A stretch of DNA of 36,491 nucleotides, taken from positions 1 to 36,491 of the forward strand of contig JANXOE010000143.1 in the NCBI GenBank assembly GCA_025353745.1, given 5' to 3'. A model generated the notes under the pieces. That model made no database searches. It was given only the letters and a program-made list of their open reading frames with translations, and had not been told where the DNA came from. The stretch's first letter is position 1. Every line of letters begins with the position of its first letter. Made by a program: the position numbers and the translations under genes. The stretch is from Hymenobacter sp. (GTDB lineage Bacteria; Bacteroidota; Bacteroidia; Cytophagales; Hymenobacteraceae). Shown one piece after another: positions 20,479 through 36,450 of this stretch.

Positions 20479-20517
20479 AAAAAAGGCCTTCCGCACTGCG
20501 CGGAAGGCCTTTTTTTA
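20479..20517. terminator. Bidirectional intrinsic terminator between aminopeptidase and carbonic anhydrase
   Basis: aaaaaaggccttccgc-actgc-gcggaaggccttttttt: long GC stem flanked by A- and T-tracts; overlaps the stop codon of the convergent gene. Confidence 0.9.
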
Positions 20518-21318
20518 TTTGTCCGAGCTTGGCACTGGCTCCTTAGTGGGTTTCTTGGCCGGCTCGTGCGCGTGGCCGTTGGGGTGGCCGGCAGCGGCGG
20601 GCTCGCTGGGCGGTGGCGTGCCGGGGTCCTCTTCGGGGTCGTGGGCTTCGGTGGCGTAGATGTGCTCCATGTCGCGCATCACGTCGTCGTTGTCGACTTG
20701 CAGGTCTTTCAGCACGCCGTCGGCGATGTCGTACACCAGGCCGTGGAGGCGGGGCGGCTTTTCGGAGCGCATGGCGTTCTGGATGATGTTGGTTTTGGCC
20801 AGGTTGCGCACCTGCTCAATCACGTTCAGCTCCACCAGCCGGCGCAGGCGCTCGGGTTCGTTCTTGATGCGCAGAAACTCGGTTTCGTGCAGCCGCACCA
20901 CGTCGCGGATGTTCGTCAGCCAGTTGTCAATCAGGCCGTACTGCTTGTTGGAGGCCGCCGCGGCCACGCCCCCGCAGCCGTAGTGGCCCACCACCATAAT
21001 GTCTTGCACGCCCAGCACTTCCACGGCGTATTGCAGCACGCTCAGCATGTTCATGTCGGAGTGCACCACCATGTTGGCGATGTTGCGGTGCACAAACATC
21101 TCGCCGGGCCCCGTGCCGGTGATGCCCGACGCCGGCACCCGCGAATCGGAGCAGCCAATGAAGAGGTATTTGGGTTGCTGGCCGTCGGCCATGCGGCGAA
21201 AATAGGCCGGGTCTTCGGCGTTTTTGGTGGCCACCCACTGGCGGTTGTTTTCGAGAATGGTTTGGATGCCGGACATGGGGCGGTCGTTGGTAAGTACTGG
21301 TTGCGTGGCGCGTGCCAT
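20515..21318 (-). CDS. Beta-class carbonic anhydrase
   Basis: IGCSDSRVPASGITGTGPGEMFVHRNIANMV and VVGHYGCGGVAAA zinc/active-site motifs. Confidence 0.95.
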   Translation of the reverse strand: MARATQPVLTNDRPMSGIQTILENNRQWVATKNAEDPAYFRRMADGQQPKYLFIGCSDSRVPASGITGTGPGEMFVHRNIANMVVHSDMNMLSVLQYAVEVLGVQDIMVVGHYGCGGVAAAASNKQYGLIDNWLTNIRDVVRLHETEFLRIKNEPERLRRLVELNVIEQVRNLAKTNIIQNAMRSEKPPRLHGLVYDIADGVLKDLQVDNDDVMRDMEHIYATEAHDPEEDPGTPPPSEPAAAGHPNGHAHEPAKKPTKEPVPSSDK

Positions 21319-21419
21319 TGGTAAGTATACGTAACTATTGGTTGGTTGCCGATGGTTTTTTGGGGCCCGGCCGCGTTGTTCAGGGCCCCGGCCCCCAAAA
21401 GCGGTTCTGGTAGAGCGGC

Positions 21420-23048
21420 TTAGTGGCCGGCCACGGCTACTTGCCGGATGCCGCGCAGCTCCAGGTGGATGCGGCGCTCGGGGGCCACCCGCCGAAACGC
21501 CTCAATGGCTTCGAGCACGTCGTGGTCGATGTCGGCCGACTGCGTGCCGTCGAGGATGACGCGGCTGCCGGCGGGCAGGCGCTCCAGCGTGTTCACGATG
21601 CTGGCCTTGTTGAGAAACGACACGTGCTCGGACAGGCGCAGGTGCAGCGTGCCGGGGGCCCGGCCGGGCGTGTCGCGGTTGAGGAAGTAGGCTTGCTCGG
21701 CGTTGGCCTTCAGAATAAAGAAAAAGCCCACCGCCAGGCCCACGCCCACGCCCTTGAGCAAATCGGTGAACAGCACGGCCCCGATGGTGACGATGAAGGG
21801 CAGAAACTGCGCCCAGCCCAGGCGCCACTGCATTCGGTACAGCACCGGCTTGGTCAGCTTGTAGCCCACCAGCAGCAGCACCGCCGCCAGCGCCGCCAGC
21901 GGAATCAGGTTCAGCACCGACGCCAGCAGCAACAGGCTGGCCAGCAGCAGCAAGCCGTGCACGAAGGACGACACGTTGCTTTGGGCCCCGGCGGCAATGT
22001 TGGCCGAAGACCGCACGATAACCGCCGTCAGGGGCAGGCCGCCGAGCAGGCCGCTCACGATGTTGCCGGCCCCCTGGGCCAGCAGCTCGCGGTTGGGCGG
22101 GGTGCGGCGCTTGTGCGGGTCGAGCTTGTCGACGGCTTCCACGCTGAGCAGGGTTTCCAGCGAAGCCACAACGGCAATGGTGAGGGCCACGCCGTAGGTC
22201 GCGGGCCGGGCAAACGCCGCCCAGTCCGGGAAGATCATCTGGCCAACCAGGCCGCCGAGCGACGACACCACGGGCAGCTTCACCAGGTGTTCGGGCCGCA
22301 CTTGCAGGCCGGGGGCCACGGCCCGCAGCAGCTGGTTCAGGCCGATGGCCGCGCACACCACCACCAGCGCCGCCGGCACTTTGCGGGCCCAGGCAAAGCG
22401 GCGCAGCCACGCGCCGTCCCAAAGCAGCAGCAGCGCCAGCGACACCACGCCCACCAGCACCGAGCCCGGGCTCAGGCCCCTGGCCGCGGCCCCGATGGCC
22501 GAAAACGTGTTCAGGCCGTTGAACTGAAGAAAGTCCAGGTCCTCGAAATAGTCCGTATCGGCCCCAAAAAAGTGCGGAATCTGCTTGAGAATCAAGATCA
22601 AGCCAATGGCGGCCAACATGCCGCGAATCACGGCCGCCGGGAAATACATGCCAATGACGCCGGCCTTGGCCACGCCCATCAGCACTTGAATGGCCCCCGC
22701 CACCACGGTGGCCGCCAGCACCGCCTGAAACGAGCCCAGCGACGAAATAGCCGTCAGGACAATCACCGTCAGGCCGGCCGCGGGGCCGCTCACGCTCAGC
22801 TGCGAGCCGCTGAGCCAGCTCACCAGCACGCCGCCTACGATGCCCGTGACCACGCCCGAGAGCAGCGGGGCCCCCGAGGCGAGCGAAATGCCCAGGCACA
22901 GCGGCAGCGCCACCAGAAACACGACCAGGCCGGCCGGCGCGTCCTGCCCAAGGGTGCTGAAAACCGATGGTTTGGGGCGGGGCGGCGCGGCGCCCGCGTT
23001 GGCAATGGGGGCCCCGGTGCGTGCCGGAGAAGAACTGATTTGGGGCAT
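21420..23048 (-). CDS. SulP (SLC26) family inorganic anion transporter with C-terminal STAS domain
   Basis: FLVALPLCLGISLASGAPLLSGVVTGIVGG...; STAS segment VSFLNKASIVNTLERLPAGSRVILDGTQSADIDHDVLEAIEAF. Confidence 0.93.
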   Translation of the reverse strand: MPQISSSPARTGAPIANAGAAPPRPKPSVFSTLGQDAPAGLVVFLVALPLCLGISLASGAPLLSGVVTGIVGGVLVSWLSGSQLSVSGPAAGLTVIVLTAISSLGSFQAVLAATVVAGAIQVLMGVAKAGVIGMYFPAAVIRGMLAAIGLILILKQIPHFFGADTDYFEDLDFLQFNGLNTFSAIGAAARGLSPGSVLVGVVSLALLLLWDGAWLRRFAWARKVPAALVVVCAAIGLNQLLRAVAPGLQVRPEHLVKLPVVSSLGGLVGQMIFPDWAAFARPATYGVALTIAVVASLETLLSVEAVDKLDPHKRRTPPNRELLAQGAGNIVSGLLGGLPLTAVIVRSSANIAAGAQSNVSSFVHGLLLLASLLLLASVLNLIPLAALAAVLLLVGYKLTKPVLYRMQWRLGWAQFLPFIVTIGAVLFTDLLKGVGVGLAVGFFFILKANAEQAYFLNRDTPGRAPGTLHLRLSEHVSFLNKASIVNTLERLPAGSRVILDGTQSADIDHDVLEAIEAFRRVAPERRIHLELRGIRQVAVAGH

Positions 23049-23179
23049 GGCGTGCAAGCAGTGGAAAGGGTGGGTGCGGTGTTTTTTGCGGGGCGTTGGA
23101 ATGCCGATGCAAGGGTACGGTGGCGCTATTAAGACGGGGTTAAAGCCGAATTAAAAGGAAATTAAAACCGCGAAAAACC

Positions 23180-25322: not shown

Positions 25323-25330
25323 TATCTTTG
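25323..25330 (+). promoter_or_regulatory. Bacteroidota -7 element TATCTTTG upstream of the SAM riboswitch
   Basis: Exact TAnnTTTG match, 28 nt before the riboswitch P1 stem. Confidence 0.6.
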
Positions 25331-25357
25331 CCCCGGCAATTCCGCGGTTTCAACGAA

Positions 25358-25457
25358 TTGTTTTTATACAGAGGCGCCGAGAGACAGGCTCGACGACGCG
25401 CCGGCAACCCCCAGCTTCCCGCTGGAACGGTGCCAACTCCTGGCCATATAAAAACAA
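25358..25457 (+). ncRNA. SAM-I (S-box) riboswitch
   Basis: P1: ttgtttttata (25358-25368) is the perfect complement of tataaaaacaa (25447-25457). Core gccgagagacaggctcgacgacgcgccggcaacc; P3 hairpin ccagc-ttccc-gctgg; conserved ggtgccaactcctg. Confidence 0.93.
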
Positions 25458-25551
25458 GCTGCCGTGACGTACCGCCCCGCTTTGTGCCCTCCCCCGTTGC
25501 CCGCCGGCGCGCCCAGTTGCGCCGCTGCCCGTTGTTGGGGCTGTTGACGCT

Positions 25552-25567
25552 GGCCCCGGCCGGGGCC
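25552..25567. repeat. 16-nt perfect GC palindrome in riboswitch leader
   Basis: GGCCCCGGCCGGGGCC. Confidence 0.8.
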
Positions 25568-25688
25568 GGGTGCTGAAAAACGCATAATCAATTTTTTACG
25601 GGTTGCAGCGCGCAGGACCGGGGCCCCGGGGCCGGTTCCGCTCGTTGCGCAATCATCGGTCGGGCGTGCGCCCGGCCCCCAAGTTTTC

Positions 25689-27152
25689 ATGCTGAAAAAA
25701 TCATTGGCCCTGCTGCAGCGCGAAGCGGCCGAAACCGGGGGCAACACCCTCAAGCGCACCCTCAACGGCGTCAGCCTCGTCGCGTTGGGCATTGGCGTAA
25801 TCATCGGAGCGGGCTTGTTTTCGCTCACCGGCCTCGCGGCGGCCAACCACGCGGGGCCCGCCGTCACGCTCTCCTTCGTGGTGGCGGCCGTGGGCTGCGC
25901 TTTCTCGGCGCTGTGCTACGCCGAATTCGCGGCCCTGGTGCCGGTGGCGGGCTCGGCCTATACCTACTCCTACGCCACCATGGGCGAGCTGTTTGCCTGG
26001 ATCATCGGCTGGGACCTGGTGCTCGAGTACTCGGTGGGGGCCGCCACGGTGGCCATCAGCTGGTCGCAGTACCTGGTGAAGTTCCTGGGCAAGTACGGCC
26101 TGCACCTGCCGGCCCGGCTGGTGATGTCGCCCTTCGAGCACGCCACCCTGGCCGACGGCACGGTGGTGACGGGCTACGCGAACGTGCCGGGCATGCTCAT
26201 TGTGCTGGCCATCACGGCGGTTATCGTGCGCGGCACCTCCGGCTCGGCCTGGTTCAACGCCCTGGTGGTGGCCCTGAAGGTGGCCGTGGTGCTGGTGTTC
26301 ATCGCCCTGGGCTGGCGCTACATCGACCCCGCCAACTACCAGCCCTACATCCCGGCCAACACCGGCACGTTCGGCGAGTTCGGGCTGAGCGGCATTTTGC
26401 GCGGGGCCGGCGTCGTGTTTTTTGTGTTCATCGGCTTTGACATCGTGGCCACGATGGCCCAGGAAACCAAAAACCCGCAGCGCAACATGCCCATCGGCAT
26501 CATCGGCTCGCTCGTCGTCTGCACCGTGCTGTTCGTGCTCTTCGGCCACGTCCTCACCGGGTTGGCCAACTACAAAGAGTTTAAGGACAGCGCCGCGCCG
26601 GTGGCCATCGCCATCGAAAAAACGCCCTACGCCTGGCTGAGCACGGCCATCATCGGGGCCATCCTCATCGGTTATACGTCGGTGATTCTGGTCGATTTGC
26701 TGGGGCAGAGCCGCGTGTTTTTCTCGATGGCGAAGGACGGGCTGCTGCCGCCGGTGTTCGCCCGCATCCACCCGCGCTTCCGCACGCCGCTGCAATCCAA
26801 CCTGTTGTTGGGGGCCTTCATCAGCGTGTTTGCGGGCTTCGTGCCCATCAGCGTGGTGGGGGAGATGACGAGCATCGGCACGCTGTTGGCCTTCGTGCTG
26901 GTGTGCGCCGGCATCCTCATCCTGCGCAAAACCGACCCCGACGCGCCCCGCAGCTTCCGCACGCCGTGGGTGCCGGTGGTGCCCATCCTGGGCATCGCCA
27001 CCTGCCTGCTGATGATGGTGAGCCTGCCCGGGGCCACCTGGGTGCGCCTCTTCGTGTGGCTGGCGCTGGGCCTGGCCATCTATTACGGGTACGGCCGGAA
27101 AAACAGCAAGCTGCGCCAGGCCCGCGACGCCGGGGCCCGCGAAGGCCAGTAG
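25689..27152 (+). CDS. APC superfamily amino acid permease (cationic amino-acid transporter-like)
   Basis: VSLVALGIGVIIGAGLFSLTGLAAANHAGPAVTLSFVVAAVGCAFSALCYAEFAALVPVAGSAYTYSYATMGELFAWIIGWDLVLEY; about 12 TM. Confidence 0.93.
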   Translation: MLKKSLALLQREAAETGGNTLKRTLNGVSLVALGIGVIIGAGLFSLTGLAAANHAGPAVTLSFVVAAVGCAFSALCYAEFAALVPVAGSAYTYSYATMGELFAWIIGWDLVLEYSVGAATVAISWSQYLVKFLGKYGLHLPARLVMSPFEHATLADGTVVTGYANVPGMLIVLAITAVIVRGTSGSAWFNALVVALKVAVVLVFIALGWRYIDPANYQPYIPANTGTFGEFGLSGILRGAGVVFFVFIGFDIVATMAQETKNPQRNMPIGIIGSLVVCTVLFVLFGHVLTGLANYKEFKDSAAPVAIAIEKTPYAWLSTAIIGAILIGYTSVILVDLLGQSRVFFSMAKDGLLPPVFARIHPRFRTPLQSNLLLGAFISVFAGFVPISVVGEMTSIGTLLAFVLVCAGILILRKTDPDAPRSFRTPWVPVVPILGIATCLLMMVSLPGATWVRLFVWLALGLAIYYGYGRKNSKLRQARDAGAREGQ

Positions 27153-31662: not shown

Positions 31663-33849
31663 ATGCGTCCGTTTCTCCCCTTTCTCTTACTCCTCGTTGC
31701 CGCGGGCGGGTCCGTTTTTGCCCAGCAGCAGCCCACCGCGCAGCGCCTCGACGAAGTGCGCGTGGTGGGGCTCAAGTCGAAAAACGGCCTGGGCAACCTG
31801 GGCCAGGTGAGCGGCGCGGTGGTGTACGCCGGCAAAAAAACCGAGGTGCTGGTGCTCGACTCGCTCGACGCCAACACGGCCCTGAACAACCCGCGCCAGA
31901 TCCTGGGGCGCATTCCGGGGGCCAACTTCTCCGAAACCGAGGGGGCGGGCTTCCCGTCGAACGGCCTCGGGCTGCGCGGCCTCAACCCGGTGCAGAGCGT
32001 GGAAATGAACGTGCGCCAAAACGGCTACAACATCACCGGCGACCTCTACGGCTACCCCGAAACCTACTACCAGCCGGCCATGGAGGCCGTGGAGCGGGTG
32101 GAAGTGACGCGCGGCGCGGCCTCGCTGCAGTTCGGCCCGCAGTTTGGCGGGGTGGTGAACTACGTGATGCGCCGGGGCCCCGAGGACCAGAAATTTGCGC
32201 TGGAGCTGCGCCAGACCGGCGGCTCGTTTGGGCTGGCCAACACGTTCACGAGCGTGGGCGGGCAGGTGGGCAAGCTCAACTACTACGCCTACGGCCAGTA
32301 CCGCCACCAGGAAGGCTGGCGGCCCAACTCGGCGCTGAGCCAGGTATCGGCCTTCGGCGGCCTGCAATACCAGGCCACCGACAAGCTGAAAATCGGCCTC
32401 GAATACTCGCTGCTGCGCAACAAAATTCAGATGCCGGGGGGCCTCACCGACTCGCTGTTCTCCGCCAACCCGCGCCAGAGCACCCGGGCCCGCAACTGGC
32501 TCGACAGCCCCTGGAACATCCTGACCCTCACCGCCGATTACCGCTTGTCGGACCGCACGCTGGTGACCTTTAAGACGGCCGGCAACCTGAGCGCCCGCCG
32601 CCTGGTGTGGCGCAACGAAGACGGCGGGGCCGCCGCCCCCGACACCATCGACCGGGCCACCGGCCAGTACGCGCCCCGCGAAGTAGAAAACGAGCGGTTC
32701 CGCAGCCTCACCAACGAGCTGCGCGTGCGCACCGACTACCGCCTGTTTGGCCTGAACAACACGGTGGCCTACGGCGTGCGCTACTTCACGGGGTACATGC
32801 ACCGGCAGGGCGGCGGGCCGGGCTCGACGGGCGCGGACTTCGACCTGGGCCTGTACGGCGGCGGCTACGAGTACGATTTCGAGTTTCGGACCCAAAACGT
32901 GGCGCCGTTTGCCGAAACGGTGCTGCGGCTCGGCGACAAGCTCTCGCTCACGCCGGGCGTGCGCTACGAGTTTCTGAACTCCAAAGCCGCCGGCTACAAA
33001 GTGCAGGACGACGGCTTGGCGCAGACCACCCACGAGTCGCGCAACCGCTCGTTTCTGCTCTTCGGGGCCGGGGCCCAGTACGAGGCCACCGCCACCACGG
33101 CCTTCTACGCCAACGTTTCGCAGGCCTACCGGCCGGTGGACTACTCGGCCCTGGAGCCGTTCGGCGTCACCTCCAAAATCGACCCCCACCTGAAAGACAG
33201 CAACGGCTACAACGCCGACCTGGGCTACCGCGGCGCGCTGGGCGAGTGGCTGAACTTCGACGTGGGCGGCTTTTTCCTGCGCTACAACCGCCGCATCGGC
33301 ACCGTCGCCCTCACCGACCCGACGACCGGCAACGACTACGCCTTCCGCACCAACGTGGCCGATTCCGAGCACAAAGGCGCCGAAACTTACGTCGAGATCA
33401 GCCCCTTGAAGCTGCTGAAGATTGCCAGCCGCCACCGCCTCAGCGCGTTCAACTCGTGGGCCTACGTCGACGCCCGCTACGTGAGCGGCGAGTTCAGCGG
33501 CAAGCGGGTGGAGTACGCGCCAAAAACCATTGAGCGCGTGGGGCTTACCTACGGCTACGGCCCGGCCAGCATCACCGGCCAGTACAGCTACACCGGCAAT
33601 TCGTTTGGCGAAGCCAACAACTTCGTGGCCCCCAGCAACGACGACCCGCTCCGGGGCCTGGTGCCGGCCTACTCGGTCTGGGACGTGTCGGGCACCTACC
33701 GCTTCCCCAACCGACTGGAAATCAAGGCCGGCGTGAACAACCTCACCGACGCCCGCTACTTCACCCGCCGCACCGACGAGTACCCCGGCCCCGGCATCAT
33801 CCCCAGCCTGGGCCGCTCGTTCTACGCCACGCTATCGGCTAAATTCTAG
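31663..33849 (+). CDS. TonB-dependent receptor, FecA-like (Fe3+ dicitrate type)
   Basis: Signal peptide; plug ILGRIPGANFSETEGAGFPSNGLGLRGLNPVQSVEMNVRQNGYNITGDLYGYPETYYQPAMEAVERVEVTRGAASLQFGPQFGGVVNYVMRRGP; C-terminal NLTDARYFTRRTDEYPGPGIIPSLGRSFYATLSAKF. Confidence 0.93.
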   Translation: MRPFLPFLLLLVAAGGSVFAQQQPTAQRLDEVRVVGLKSKNGLGNLGQVSGAVVYAGKKTEVLVLDSLDANTALNNPRQILGRIPGANFSETEGAGFPSNGLGLRGLNPVQSVEMNVRQNGYNITGDLYGYPETYYQPAMEAVERVEVTRGAASLQFGPQFGGVVNYVMRRGPEDQKFALELRQTGGSFGLANTFTSVGGQVGKLNYYAYGQYRHQEGWRPNSALSQVSAFGGLQYQATDKLKIGLEYSLLRNKIQMPGGLTDSLFSANPRQSTRARNWLDSPWNILTLTADYRLSDRTLVTFKTAGNLSARRLVWRNEDGGAAAPDTIDRATGQYAPREVENERFRSLTNELRVRTDYRLFGLNNTVAYGVRYFTGYMHRQGGGPGSTGADFDLGLYGGGYEYDFEFRTQNVAPFAETVLRLGDKLSLTPGVRYEFLNSKAAGYKVQDDGLAQTTHESRNRSFLLFGAGAQYEATATTAFYANVSQAYRPVDYSALEPFGVTSKIDPHLKDSNGYNADLGYRGALGEWLNFDVGGFFLRYNRRIGTVALTDPTTGNDYAFRTNVADSEHKGAETYVEISPLKLLKIASRHRLSAFNSWAYVDARYVSGEFSGKRVEYAPKTIERVGLTYGYGPASITGQYSYTGNSFGEANNFVAPSNDDPLRGLVPAYSVWDVSGTYRFPNRLEIKAGVNNLTDARYFTRRTDEYPGPGIIPSLGRSFYATLSAKF

Positions 33850-33913
33850 CGGTTGGGGCCTGGTTTTCAAGCCCCAACAACCAAGCGCCGAGCGCCCCCA
33901 ACCGAGCAATCCA

Positions 33914-34990
33914 ATGAAACGCGCTACCCTTATCCTAGCCGCTGCCCTGCTGGCCGGCTGCCAGAAGGAAGTCATCGACCCGCAAAATACGGGGGCCGGC
34001 TCGCCCGGCTACAACGCCGCGGCCTTGCTGAGCAATGCCGCCAACCACGTCATCCTGAGCAATTACCGCGACCTCGACCAGCAGGCCGGGGCCCTGCAAG
34101 CGGCCGTGCAAGCCCTGGCCGCCCAGCCCAGCCCCGCCGCGCTGGCGGCCGCCCGCGCGGCCTACCGCGCCGCCCGCCTGCCCTGGGAAACCACGGAGGC
34201 CTTCGCTTTCGGCCCGGTGAGCACCCTGGGCCTCGACGCCGTCATCGACACCTGGCCCCTGAACCGCGTGGACCTGGCCGCCCTGCTGGCCAGCGCCGAC
34301 CCGCTGACGCCCGCCAGCCTGGCCCCGCGCGACGGCGGCCTGCAAGGCTACCACCCCGCCGAGTTCCTGCTCTTTGGCAACGACGGCCACAAGGCGCTGG
34401 CGGCCTTCACGCCCCGCGAGTATTTGTTCCTGTCGTCGTCGGCCCAAAACCTGAAGGCCAACACCGCCCGGCTGCTGGCCGCCTGGGCCCCCGGCAACGG
34501 CAGCTTCGCCGCGGCGCTCGCCGGCGCGGGCCCCGGCAACGCCTTATATCCCAAGCAAAAGCAGGCCGTGCAGGAATTGCTCGACGGCCTGGTGGGGCCC
34601 GCCGATGAGCTGGCCAACAGCAAAATCGAAGCCCCGCTCGCCAACCAGAGCACGGAATTCGAAGAAGCGAAATTCAGCCAAAACTCCAAGGCCGAGTTCG
34701 CGGCCAACCTGGCCGGCATCGAAAACATCTACACCGGCCGCTACGGCCCCGGTGGTCCGGACGGCCCCGGCGCGGGCTTCGGGGCCCTGGTGGCGGCCCG
34801 CAGCCCGGCCCTCGACGCGCGCTTCCGCCAGGAGCTGGCCGCCGCCCAAACGGCCGTGGGGGCCCTGCCCGGCCGCTTCGACGAAGCCATCTTCCAAAAC
34901 CCCGCCGCCGTGCGGGTCGCCCAAGCCAAGGTGCGCACCGTGCTGAACACGCTGCAAAACGACTTCGCCCCGCTGGTCGAAGCGCTGTAG
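33914..34990 (+). CDS. Imelysin family lipoprotein (iron-related)
   Basis: Lipobox LAAALLAGCQKE; GYHPAEFLLFG (GxHxxE imelysin motif); all-alpha composition. Confidence 0.88.
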   Translation: MKRATLILAAALLAGCQKEVIDPQNTGAGSPGYNAAALLSNAANHVILSNYRDLDQQAGALQAAVQALAAQPSPAALAAARAAYRAARLPWETTEAFAFGPVSTLGLDAVIDTWPLNRVDLAALLASADPLTPASLAPRDGGLQGYHPAEFLLFGNDGHKALAAFTPREYLFLSSSAQNLKANTARLLAAWAPGNGSFAAALAGAGPGNALYPKQKQAVQELLDGLVGPADELANSKIEAPLANQSTEFEEAKFSQNSKAEFAANLAGIENIYTGRYGPGGPDGPGAGFGALVAARSPALDARFRQELAAAQTAVGALPGRFDEAIFQNPAAVRVAQAKVRTVLNTLQNDFAPLVEAL

Positions 34991-35016
34991 AACAGGTCTT
35001 TTTTTCGGGAAGCTCC

Positions 35017-36450
<1,434 letters not shown>

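Follow-up and report, generated by a model that had tools for sequence, protein, structure and literature searches.

The leader RNA in front of an amino-acid permease gene of Hymenobacter sp. appears to take two inputs; in our judgement, its SAM-I riboswitch is likely to control a short leader open reading frame (ORF) ending in cysteine codons, and not the permease gene directly. This leader lies in a 36,491-nucleotide stretch of DNA, referred to here as the window. Since a comparison of about 270 related leaders shows the aptamer together with a Cys-codon ORF, sensors for SAM and for cysteine supply appear to be combined, and at the sequence level this two-sensor architecture is strongly supported for the family. 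It is also probable, although we hold this broader proposal with somewhat less assurance, that many SAM-I riboswitches of the Cytophagales and related Bacteroidota regulate a poly-Cys leader ORF in place of the structural gene, in a nested device that fires only when SAM and charged tRNA-Cys are scarce at the same time, serving sulfur acquisition and not methionine-only genes; SAM would hide the A-rich, Shine-Dalgarno-less start of the ORF in the P1 helix. The usual view takes riboswitches and amino-acid leader peptides as two alternatives, whereas this type of leader seems to connect them in series, an arrangement seen in genomes of at least nine family-level groups.

The SAM-I Aptamer and the Permease Gene

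A covariance-model search with cmscan matched positions 25361-25454 of the forward strand to the SAM-I (S-box) riboswitch family RF00162 (70.3 bits; gathering score 44.4; E 1.3e-14; model positions 1-108 of 108), in agreement with the near-complete aptamer that the initial annotation had noticed. In being full-length and scoring far above the gathering threshold, it resembles known SAM-I members. The closing helix P1 consists of 11 perfect pairs, also as first described, between the 5' strand TTGTTTTTATA (25358-25368) and the 3' strand TATAAAAACAA (25447-25457). Together with the core motifs GGCAACC, GGTGCCAA and TCCTG, this helix is kept across 60 relatives, and GTTTTTATA of the P1 5' strand occurs in 60/60 permease leaders. 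By these features the RNA is a standard SAM-I riboswitch, predicted to bind SAM and to change expression in response.

The exact promoter motif TAnnTTTG reported upstream of the aptamer was recovered as the Bacteroidota -7 element TATCTTTG at 25323-25330 on the forward strand; it stands at a constant distance in 58/60 permease leaders, compared with 0.012 occurrences expected per 60 nt. The distance of 231 nt from P1 to the permease ATG (25689) was likewise borne out. Since the aptamer core and the ATG are separated by about 210-570 nt in 60 Hymenobacter leaders, the window leader, which had been described as very long, is of normal length for these genes. The initial annotation had seen no other gene before the permease; the aptamer does lie directly upstream of it, but a 27-codon ORF (25464-25547) sits in between.

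The permease itself (25689-27152, forward strand; 487 aa) belongs to the APC superfamily and is BcaP/CAT-like. Its domains match PF13520 and PF13906, and its nearest solved relatives are 5oqt and 6f34. The match to the BcaP model NF053761 (E 1.5e-163, 545 bits) falls below the curated NCBIfam cut-off of 690, and on this score the protein would be called BcaP-like only.

A Family of Leader ORFs Ending in Cysteine Codons

In the aligned permease leaders, the distances from the aptamer to GTTGTTG runs differ by multiples of three, and these runs form the end of a short ORF whose GTG start is found 6 nt after the P1 3' strand. The leader ORFs of relatives carry 3-6 cysteine codons at the stop, as in the ending GCCCCC. 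Full-length examples, each read up to the stop codon, are MDCFPKLPVAIVAVAKAAAPLRRAAGCCCCC (permease leader, H. nitidus), MDFLPRLTARFSVAAVVPRPFAAEACSCCSTGCCCC (permease leader, H. psychrotolerans), MEASNNQPVFLAAFSARLAAMPRTGMACCCCCCLA (ATP-grasp gene) and MVHSNNLRTLASPTLSGPVAACMGMMCCCACCC (PAPS reductase gene). Such ORFs, with an ATG or GTG start and up to eight cysteines at the end, also occur beyond the genus, both elsewhere in the family and in further families of the order and class; the positive family-level groups include those coded f1, f2, f4, f5, f14, f18, f19, f22 and f23.

To 271 distinct SAM-I leaders from related genomes, sorted into gene classes by N-terminal sequence motifs with HMM spot-checks, we applied a fixed rule: an ATG or GTG 3-14 nt after P1, an ORF of 12-60 codons, and at least three Cys among the last eight codons. 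Expected counts were taken from dinucleotide shuffles. The rule was passed by 57/65 permease leaders (0.35 expected), 32/35 ATP-grasp leaders (0.15), 21/56 O-acetylhomoserine (OAH) sulfhydrylase leaders (0.0) and 5/12 CysH (PAPS reductase) leaders (0.05; 9/12 when two Cys suffice). Among the same 271 leaders, it was passed by none of those preceding MetH (0/34), MetB-like (0/17), Hom (0/7) or MetX (0/3) genes. About 35 of the 56 OAH-sulfhydrylase leaders are without the ORF, and these come mostly from other families of the phylum. When ORFs were simply listed, 57/60 permease leaders had a Cys-rich ORF end.

A frame test on 125 leaders, in which the start was chosen by position alone, is less circular than the fixed rule. 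In 116/125 leaders the TGY (Cys) run shared the frame of the start codon, no in-frame stop preceded the run in this set, and in 65 leaders the run led directly into the stop codon; the corresponding binomial figure of 2e-44 overstates the case, since the sequences are related. Across the family, the cysteine codons are TGT 517 times and TGC 242 times. Both are thus in use, which indicates that the amino acid is kept and not a nucleotide repeat. In every positive leader, whether its ORF starts with ATG or GTG, 3-12 nt separate P1 from the start codon, and for the majority of permease and ATP-grasp leaders this distance is 6 nt. In the part of the ORF that encodes the peptide body, codon positions 1, 2 and 3 showed 155, 113 and 175 differences, respectively, which favors coding only mildly; purifying selection on the whole body was accordingly set aside as a description of these ORFs. 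A mild signal is what one would expect if only the Cys run matters.

These data bear on the idea that the GUUGUU repeat is an RNA element, either pairing with CAACAAC near the ORF start or serving as a protein site, with the reading frame as a by-product. RNAalifold applied to 16 ATP-grasp leaders does pair GUUGUU from the Cys run with AACAAC, which encodes Asn-Asn, and this fold suggests, but only suggests, an intra-ORF hairpin between the start region and the stretch downstream of the Cys run. We regard a pure RNA element as very unlikely, given that the runs keep frame without an intervening stop, end at or near the stop codon, and interchange TGT and TGC, and that most permease and OAH leaders lack AACAAC. 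By analogy with classical attenuators, the Cys run may have a mixed role, acting through its codons as well as through pairing.

A different proposal is that the leader peptide is itself the sensor, in that the nascent poly-Cys chain stalls or reacts (with oxidants or metal) while still inside the ribosome, so that the input would be redox state or metal and not charged tRNA-Cys. The placement of the cysteines speaks for it, since the four codons before the stop are each Cys in 63-85% of cases (85% at position -3), as in arrest peptides that act at termination. Unlike in known arrest peptides, however, the run varies from 2 to 8 cysteines and the upstream peptide is not conserved, and the target genes are those of sulfur assimilation; a peptide sensor is in our view distinctly unlikely, and we favor a ribosome that would respond to the supply of charged tRNA-Cys.

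The Leader ORF of the Window

The window copy of the leader ORF (25464-25547, forward strand) has a GTG start 6 nt past P1, encodes the 27 aa peptide MTYRPALCPPPLPAGAPSCAAARCWGC and stops at TGA (25545-25547). Its start lies 134 nt downstream of the promoter element and 3' of the aptamer. The peptide ends in RCWGC, with two Cys among the last eight codons, a level that about 3% of shuffled leaders of its class also reach. An attenuator is expected to have a short translatable ORF with a run of regulatory codons near the stop; the family has this feature, and the window copy has it in weak form. We judge from its sequence that the window ORF is a degenerate, weakened member of the poly-Cys leader peptide family, and with the run reduced to RCWGC, its cysteine response may be reduced as well. 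The two loci most like the window in leader sequence (G012 and G052) have a short or interrupted Cys run, and in the permease leader of G093 the run is absent. Because of these shortened, interrupted or absent runs and the weak ORF of the window, the cysteine arm may be relaxing or decaying in some lineages, including that of the window.

Folding Potential Downstream of the Leader ORF

Local folding of the window leader places three GC-rich elements on the forward strand after the ORF. A hairpin at 25550-25569, containing the palindrome GGCCCCGGCCGGGGCC (25552-25567), directly follows the leader ORF stop and is a possible attenuator arm; with a gap of about 23 nt before the T6 run at 25592-25597, it is not a canonical terminator. 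The second palindrome, CCGGGGCCCCGG, occupies 25618-25629, and its core GGGGCCCC is kept in G012 and G052. A further hairpin (GGTCGGGC/GCCCGGCC; 25658-25677; z = -1.98) ends 11 nt before the permease ATG, and G012 and G052 have one like it.

The palindromes had led the initial annotation to propose an alternative-pairing expression platform. In its general form, this reading makes the RNA a plain SAM-I riboswitch with a termination or alternative-pairing platform built from the GC palindromes, the leader ORF being incidental. Both palindromes are where they were described and could pair with each other, the fold of segment 25549-25640 is somewhat more stable than those of its shuffles (z = -1.5), and GC hairpins stand at similar places in G012 and G052. 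Yet the whole window leader folds no better than its dinucleotide shuffles (z = +0.86; 85/100 shuffles fold as well), and the 36.5-kb window holds four perfect palindromes of 16 nt and 23 of 12 nt, so that the pair does not go beyond chance for this DNA and the support for a palindromic platform reaches no further than base composition. It is the in-frame Cys run, and not the palindromes, that relatives have kept. We therefore rejected the palindromes as the switch, and we rate the plain riboswitch as unlikely.

Terminator-like sites after the leader ORF were found in 29/61 permease leaders vs 31% in shuffles, in 9/32 ATP-grasp leaders vs 25% in shuffles, and in 0/9 CysH leaders. In the OAH class they occur in 4/21 leaders vs 5% in shuffles, which is above the shuffled rate but a minority. 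With rates near those of shuffles in three of the four poly-Cys classes, an intrinsic terminator after the leader ORF was set aside as less likely, and the folding and terminator analyses of the poly-Cys leaders did not identify a conserved downstream attenuator. A terminator-like hairpin follows P1 in 16/17 MetB-like leaders and 7/7 Hom leaders. Hymenobacter thus uses plain SAM-I terminator leaders for its MetB-like and homoserine dehydrogenase genes, and these serve as an internal control.

The Hymenobacter SAM-I leaders of MetB-like, cysK/CBS-like and homoserine dehydrogenase genes (L008-L037, e.g., L008:1501-1616) rely on another platform, itself conserved; in most of them a terminator with a T run lies about 100 nt past the core. 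Two SAM-I platform types therefore coexist in Hymenobacter.

Proposed Mechanism

Bacteroidetes initiate translation without Shine-Dalgarno sequences; initiation needs upstream adenines (at -3, -6, -12 and -13) and little structure near the start (PMC6847099). The P1 3' strand, which is UAUAAAAACAA in the window and of the UAUAAAU type in other leaders, ends 3-12 nt before the start codon. In the window, TATAAAAACAA spans positions -17 to -7 relative to the start of the leader ORF, and the helix leaves the start codon itself unpaired, which bears on how strong a translational block would be. Because initiation depends on adenines and is sensitive to structure, the P1 strand, when closed by SAM, would cover the ribosome-entry region of the leader ORF.

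We envisage the following sequence of events. With SAM bound, P1 would be closed and the A-rich 3' strand paired, so that the leader ORF would stay untranslated and the system would be off by default. When SAM is low, P1 would open and the leader ORF would be translated. If charged tRNA-Cys is plentiful at that time, the ribosome would reach the stop codon and leave, and expression would remain off; if it is scarce, the ribosome would stall at the cysteine codons and protect the downstream RNA, permitting transcription (or translation) of the permease gene to proceed. Synthesis of the permease would thus require a shortage of SAM and of cysteine at once, and the transporter would import an amino acid that contains sulfur, or a related one.

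The last step would most likely be relief of Rho-dependent termination, because the leaders have no conserved intrinsic terminator and the body of the leader ORF is rich in C and poor in G. The bodies of the permease leader ORFs contain 36% C and 25% G, that of the window ORF 50% C and 28% G, and the window ORF segment is less structured than its shuffles (z = +2.09). Both properties, base composition and low structure, fit a Rho-dependent default.

Target Genes

The genes led by poly-Cys ORFs are largely those of sulfur assimilation: PAPS reductase, members of the nitrite/sulfite reductase family, OAH/OSH sulfhydrylases and the SfnG-like LLM protein. As expected of an attenuator, the controlled genes belong to the pathway of the regulatory amino acid.

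Four SAM-I sites were found in the source genome, preceding the permease gene, metH-metF, an O-acetylhomoserine sulfhydrylase gene and a gene of the carboxymuconolactone-decarboxylase family. Poly-Cys-type ORFs are present at two of the three sites other than that of the permease, and none precedes metH. The leader ORF of the OAH sulfhydrylase gene ends in RCWGPCCCG, and that of another SAM-I site in RCWGTMPRRGCC. Elsewhere in this genome, a poly-Cys ORF separate from SAM-I was sought, and only one exact TGTTGTTGTTGTTGA came up, with no recognisable leader ORF; it resembles a coding region read on its antisense strand.

In the source genome (C273; L003:1501-1610), a SAM-I aptamer and the leader ORF MPSQLPLFGASFLAPAAPRERCWGTMPRRGCC stand upstream of the carboxymuconolactone-decarboxylase-family gene, an unusual target for SAM-I. 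At three further loci (L226, L227 and L229), SAM-I aptamers are followed by leader ORFs ending in CMPSCCYC, QACCCC and CMHSCCCC, respectively, with TonB-dependent receptor and M14 zinc carboxypeptidase genes downstream, suggesting scavenging of peptide-bound sulfur.

Linkage of the Riboswitch and the Permease Gene

An orthologue of the permease is present in nearly all of the 101 Hymenobacter genomes searched. Upstream DNA was taken from 91 of these, giving 92 loci with the window included. A SAM-I aptamer lies directly upstream of the permease orthologue (81-91% identity) in 65/92 loci, a count that takes in the window as well as five aptamers that cmscan alone detected. The gene order in 22 of the 92 loci is ATP-grasp (RimK-like), LLM flavin monooxygenase (SfnG-like), then permease, with SAM-I before the ATP-grasp gene in nearly all of them; 4 or 5 loci have no SAM-I nearby. 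The direct arrangement and the ATP-grasp/LLM operons together support the initial annotation's view that SAM-I controls the permease. Import of methionine in particular goes further than these data: the protein stays under the BcaP cut-off, the leader peptide points to cysteine or sulfur supply as well as SAM, and orthologues of other genera, named below, have no SAM-I in the upstream DNA scanned.

The ATP-grasp gene occurs in 46/101 Hymenobacter genomes and is absent from the source genome; where it does not adjoin the permease gene, the coordinates listed usually place a separate SAM-I aptamer ahead of it. In the permease tree there are several switches between the two arrangements, with direct linkage on deep branches. 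Synteny and the tree thus indicate that the link between SAM-I and the permease is old and has been kept in Hymenobacter. No SAM-I was found in the 3.5 kb upstream of the Spirosoma, Larkinella, Chitinophaga, Pedobacter, Mucilaginibacter and Siphonobacter orthologues, and the link is not general beyond the Hymenobacteraceae.

Could the aptamer be a fossil, inherited from an operon whose ATP-grasp and LLM genes were deleted? In favor of this, 22 relatives have leader, ATP-grasp, LLM and permease in that order, the permease genes of G027 and G099 are preceded by ATP-grasp-type leader peptides, and the leader of G066 (L108) contains a relic of the LLM gene (E 4e-9), located in the last 350 nt or so before the permease gene. 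As judged from its sequence, this relic shows that the ATP-grasp/LLM pair was deleted there and an ATP-grasp-type leader peptide retained. The direct arrangement is the commoner one, however, and fills the deep branches, the window leader contains no LLM relic, and its promoter and aptamer are still intact, all of which makes a fossil leader highly improbable for the window. The initial annotation had considered that a met gene once directly downstream had been lost. Loss of this general kind took place in at least one relative, G066, but the window does not need it, because direct linkage is the deep state and no relic is present; we rejected the idea for the window on synteny and the permease tree, and the gene lost in such a scenario would not be a classical met gene.

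At L068 (1362-3416) and some 20 other Hymenobacter loci, the RimK-like ATP-grasp and SfnG-like LLM genes form a SAM-I-led operon in which the permease is often third. This gene pair looks like an organosulfur acquisition module.

Relation to Known Systems

SAM-I riboswitches usually act through an intrinsic terminator or by sequestering the start of the gene that they control. The poly-Cys SAM-I leaders differ in that P1 abuts a leader ORF that is followed by no conserved terminator, while the same genomes also carry canonical-terminator SAM-I leaders (MetB-like, Hom). In the mgtA leader of Salmonella, magnesium sensing is combined with the mgtL leader peptide, and translation feeds Rho-dependent control. 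It likewise joins a metabolite- or ion-responsive element and a leader peptide in one RNA, but differs in ligand, amino acids and organism, and has neither a SAM-I aptamer nor a Cys run.

Poly-Cys leader peptides have been reported in Actinobacteria (PMC1262725, PMC13236596) and alpha-proteobacteria (PMC8632094), and there are hints of leader-peptide attenuation in Flavobacterium psychrophilum (PMC9723704). Those of the mycobacterial cys operons (Seliverstov et al., 2005, PMC1262725; also Canestrari et al., 2020, in the form cited in PMC13236596) resemble the present ones as short ORFs with a Cys-codon run at the stop, located before sulfur genes and without an obvious terminator, for which Rho-dependent control was suggested (PMC1262725). 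They belong to another phylum, have no riboswitch and are described as leaderless, with the ORF at the 5' end of the transcript; the Hymenobacter ORF begins well behind the promoter element, after the aptamer. The uORFC-8-2 attenuator before cysS in Rhodobacterales (PMC8632094) also has a leader ORF with tandem Cys codons, but uses an intrinsic terminator, has no aptamer and precedes a different gene. The literature searched contained no report of SAM-I combined with a poly-Cys ORF, which is no proof of novelty.

If the proposed mechanism is correct, it would explain how SAM-I controls translation in bacteria that do not rely on Shine-Dalgarno sequences, would give sulfur metabolism a simple logic gate with two metabolite inputs, and would add the Bacteroidota to the groups with poly-Cys leader peptides.

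Elsewhere in the window, the reverse strand at 20515-23057 carries what is presumably a carbonic anhydrase-like gene adjoining a SulP-type transporter gene. On the forward strand at 31663-36450, a TonB receptor gene identified by profile match is followed by two further genes, which we take to be look-alikes of an imelysin-like lipoprotein and a di-haem oxidoreductase.
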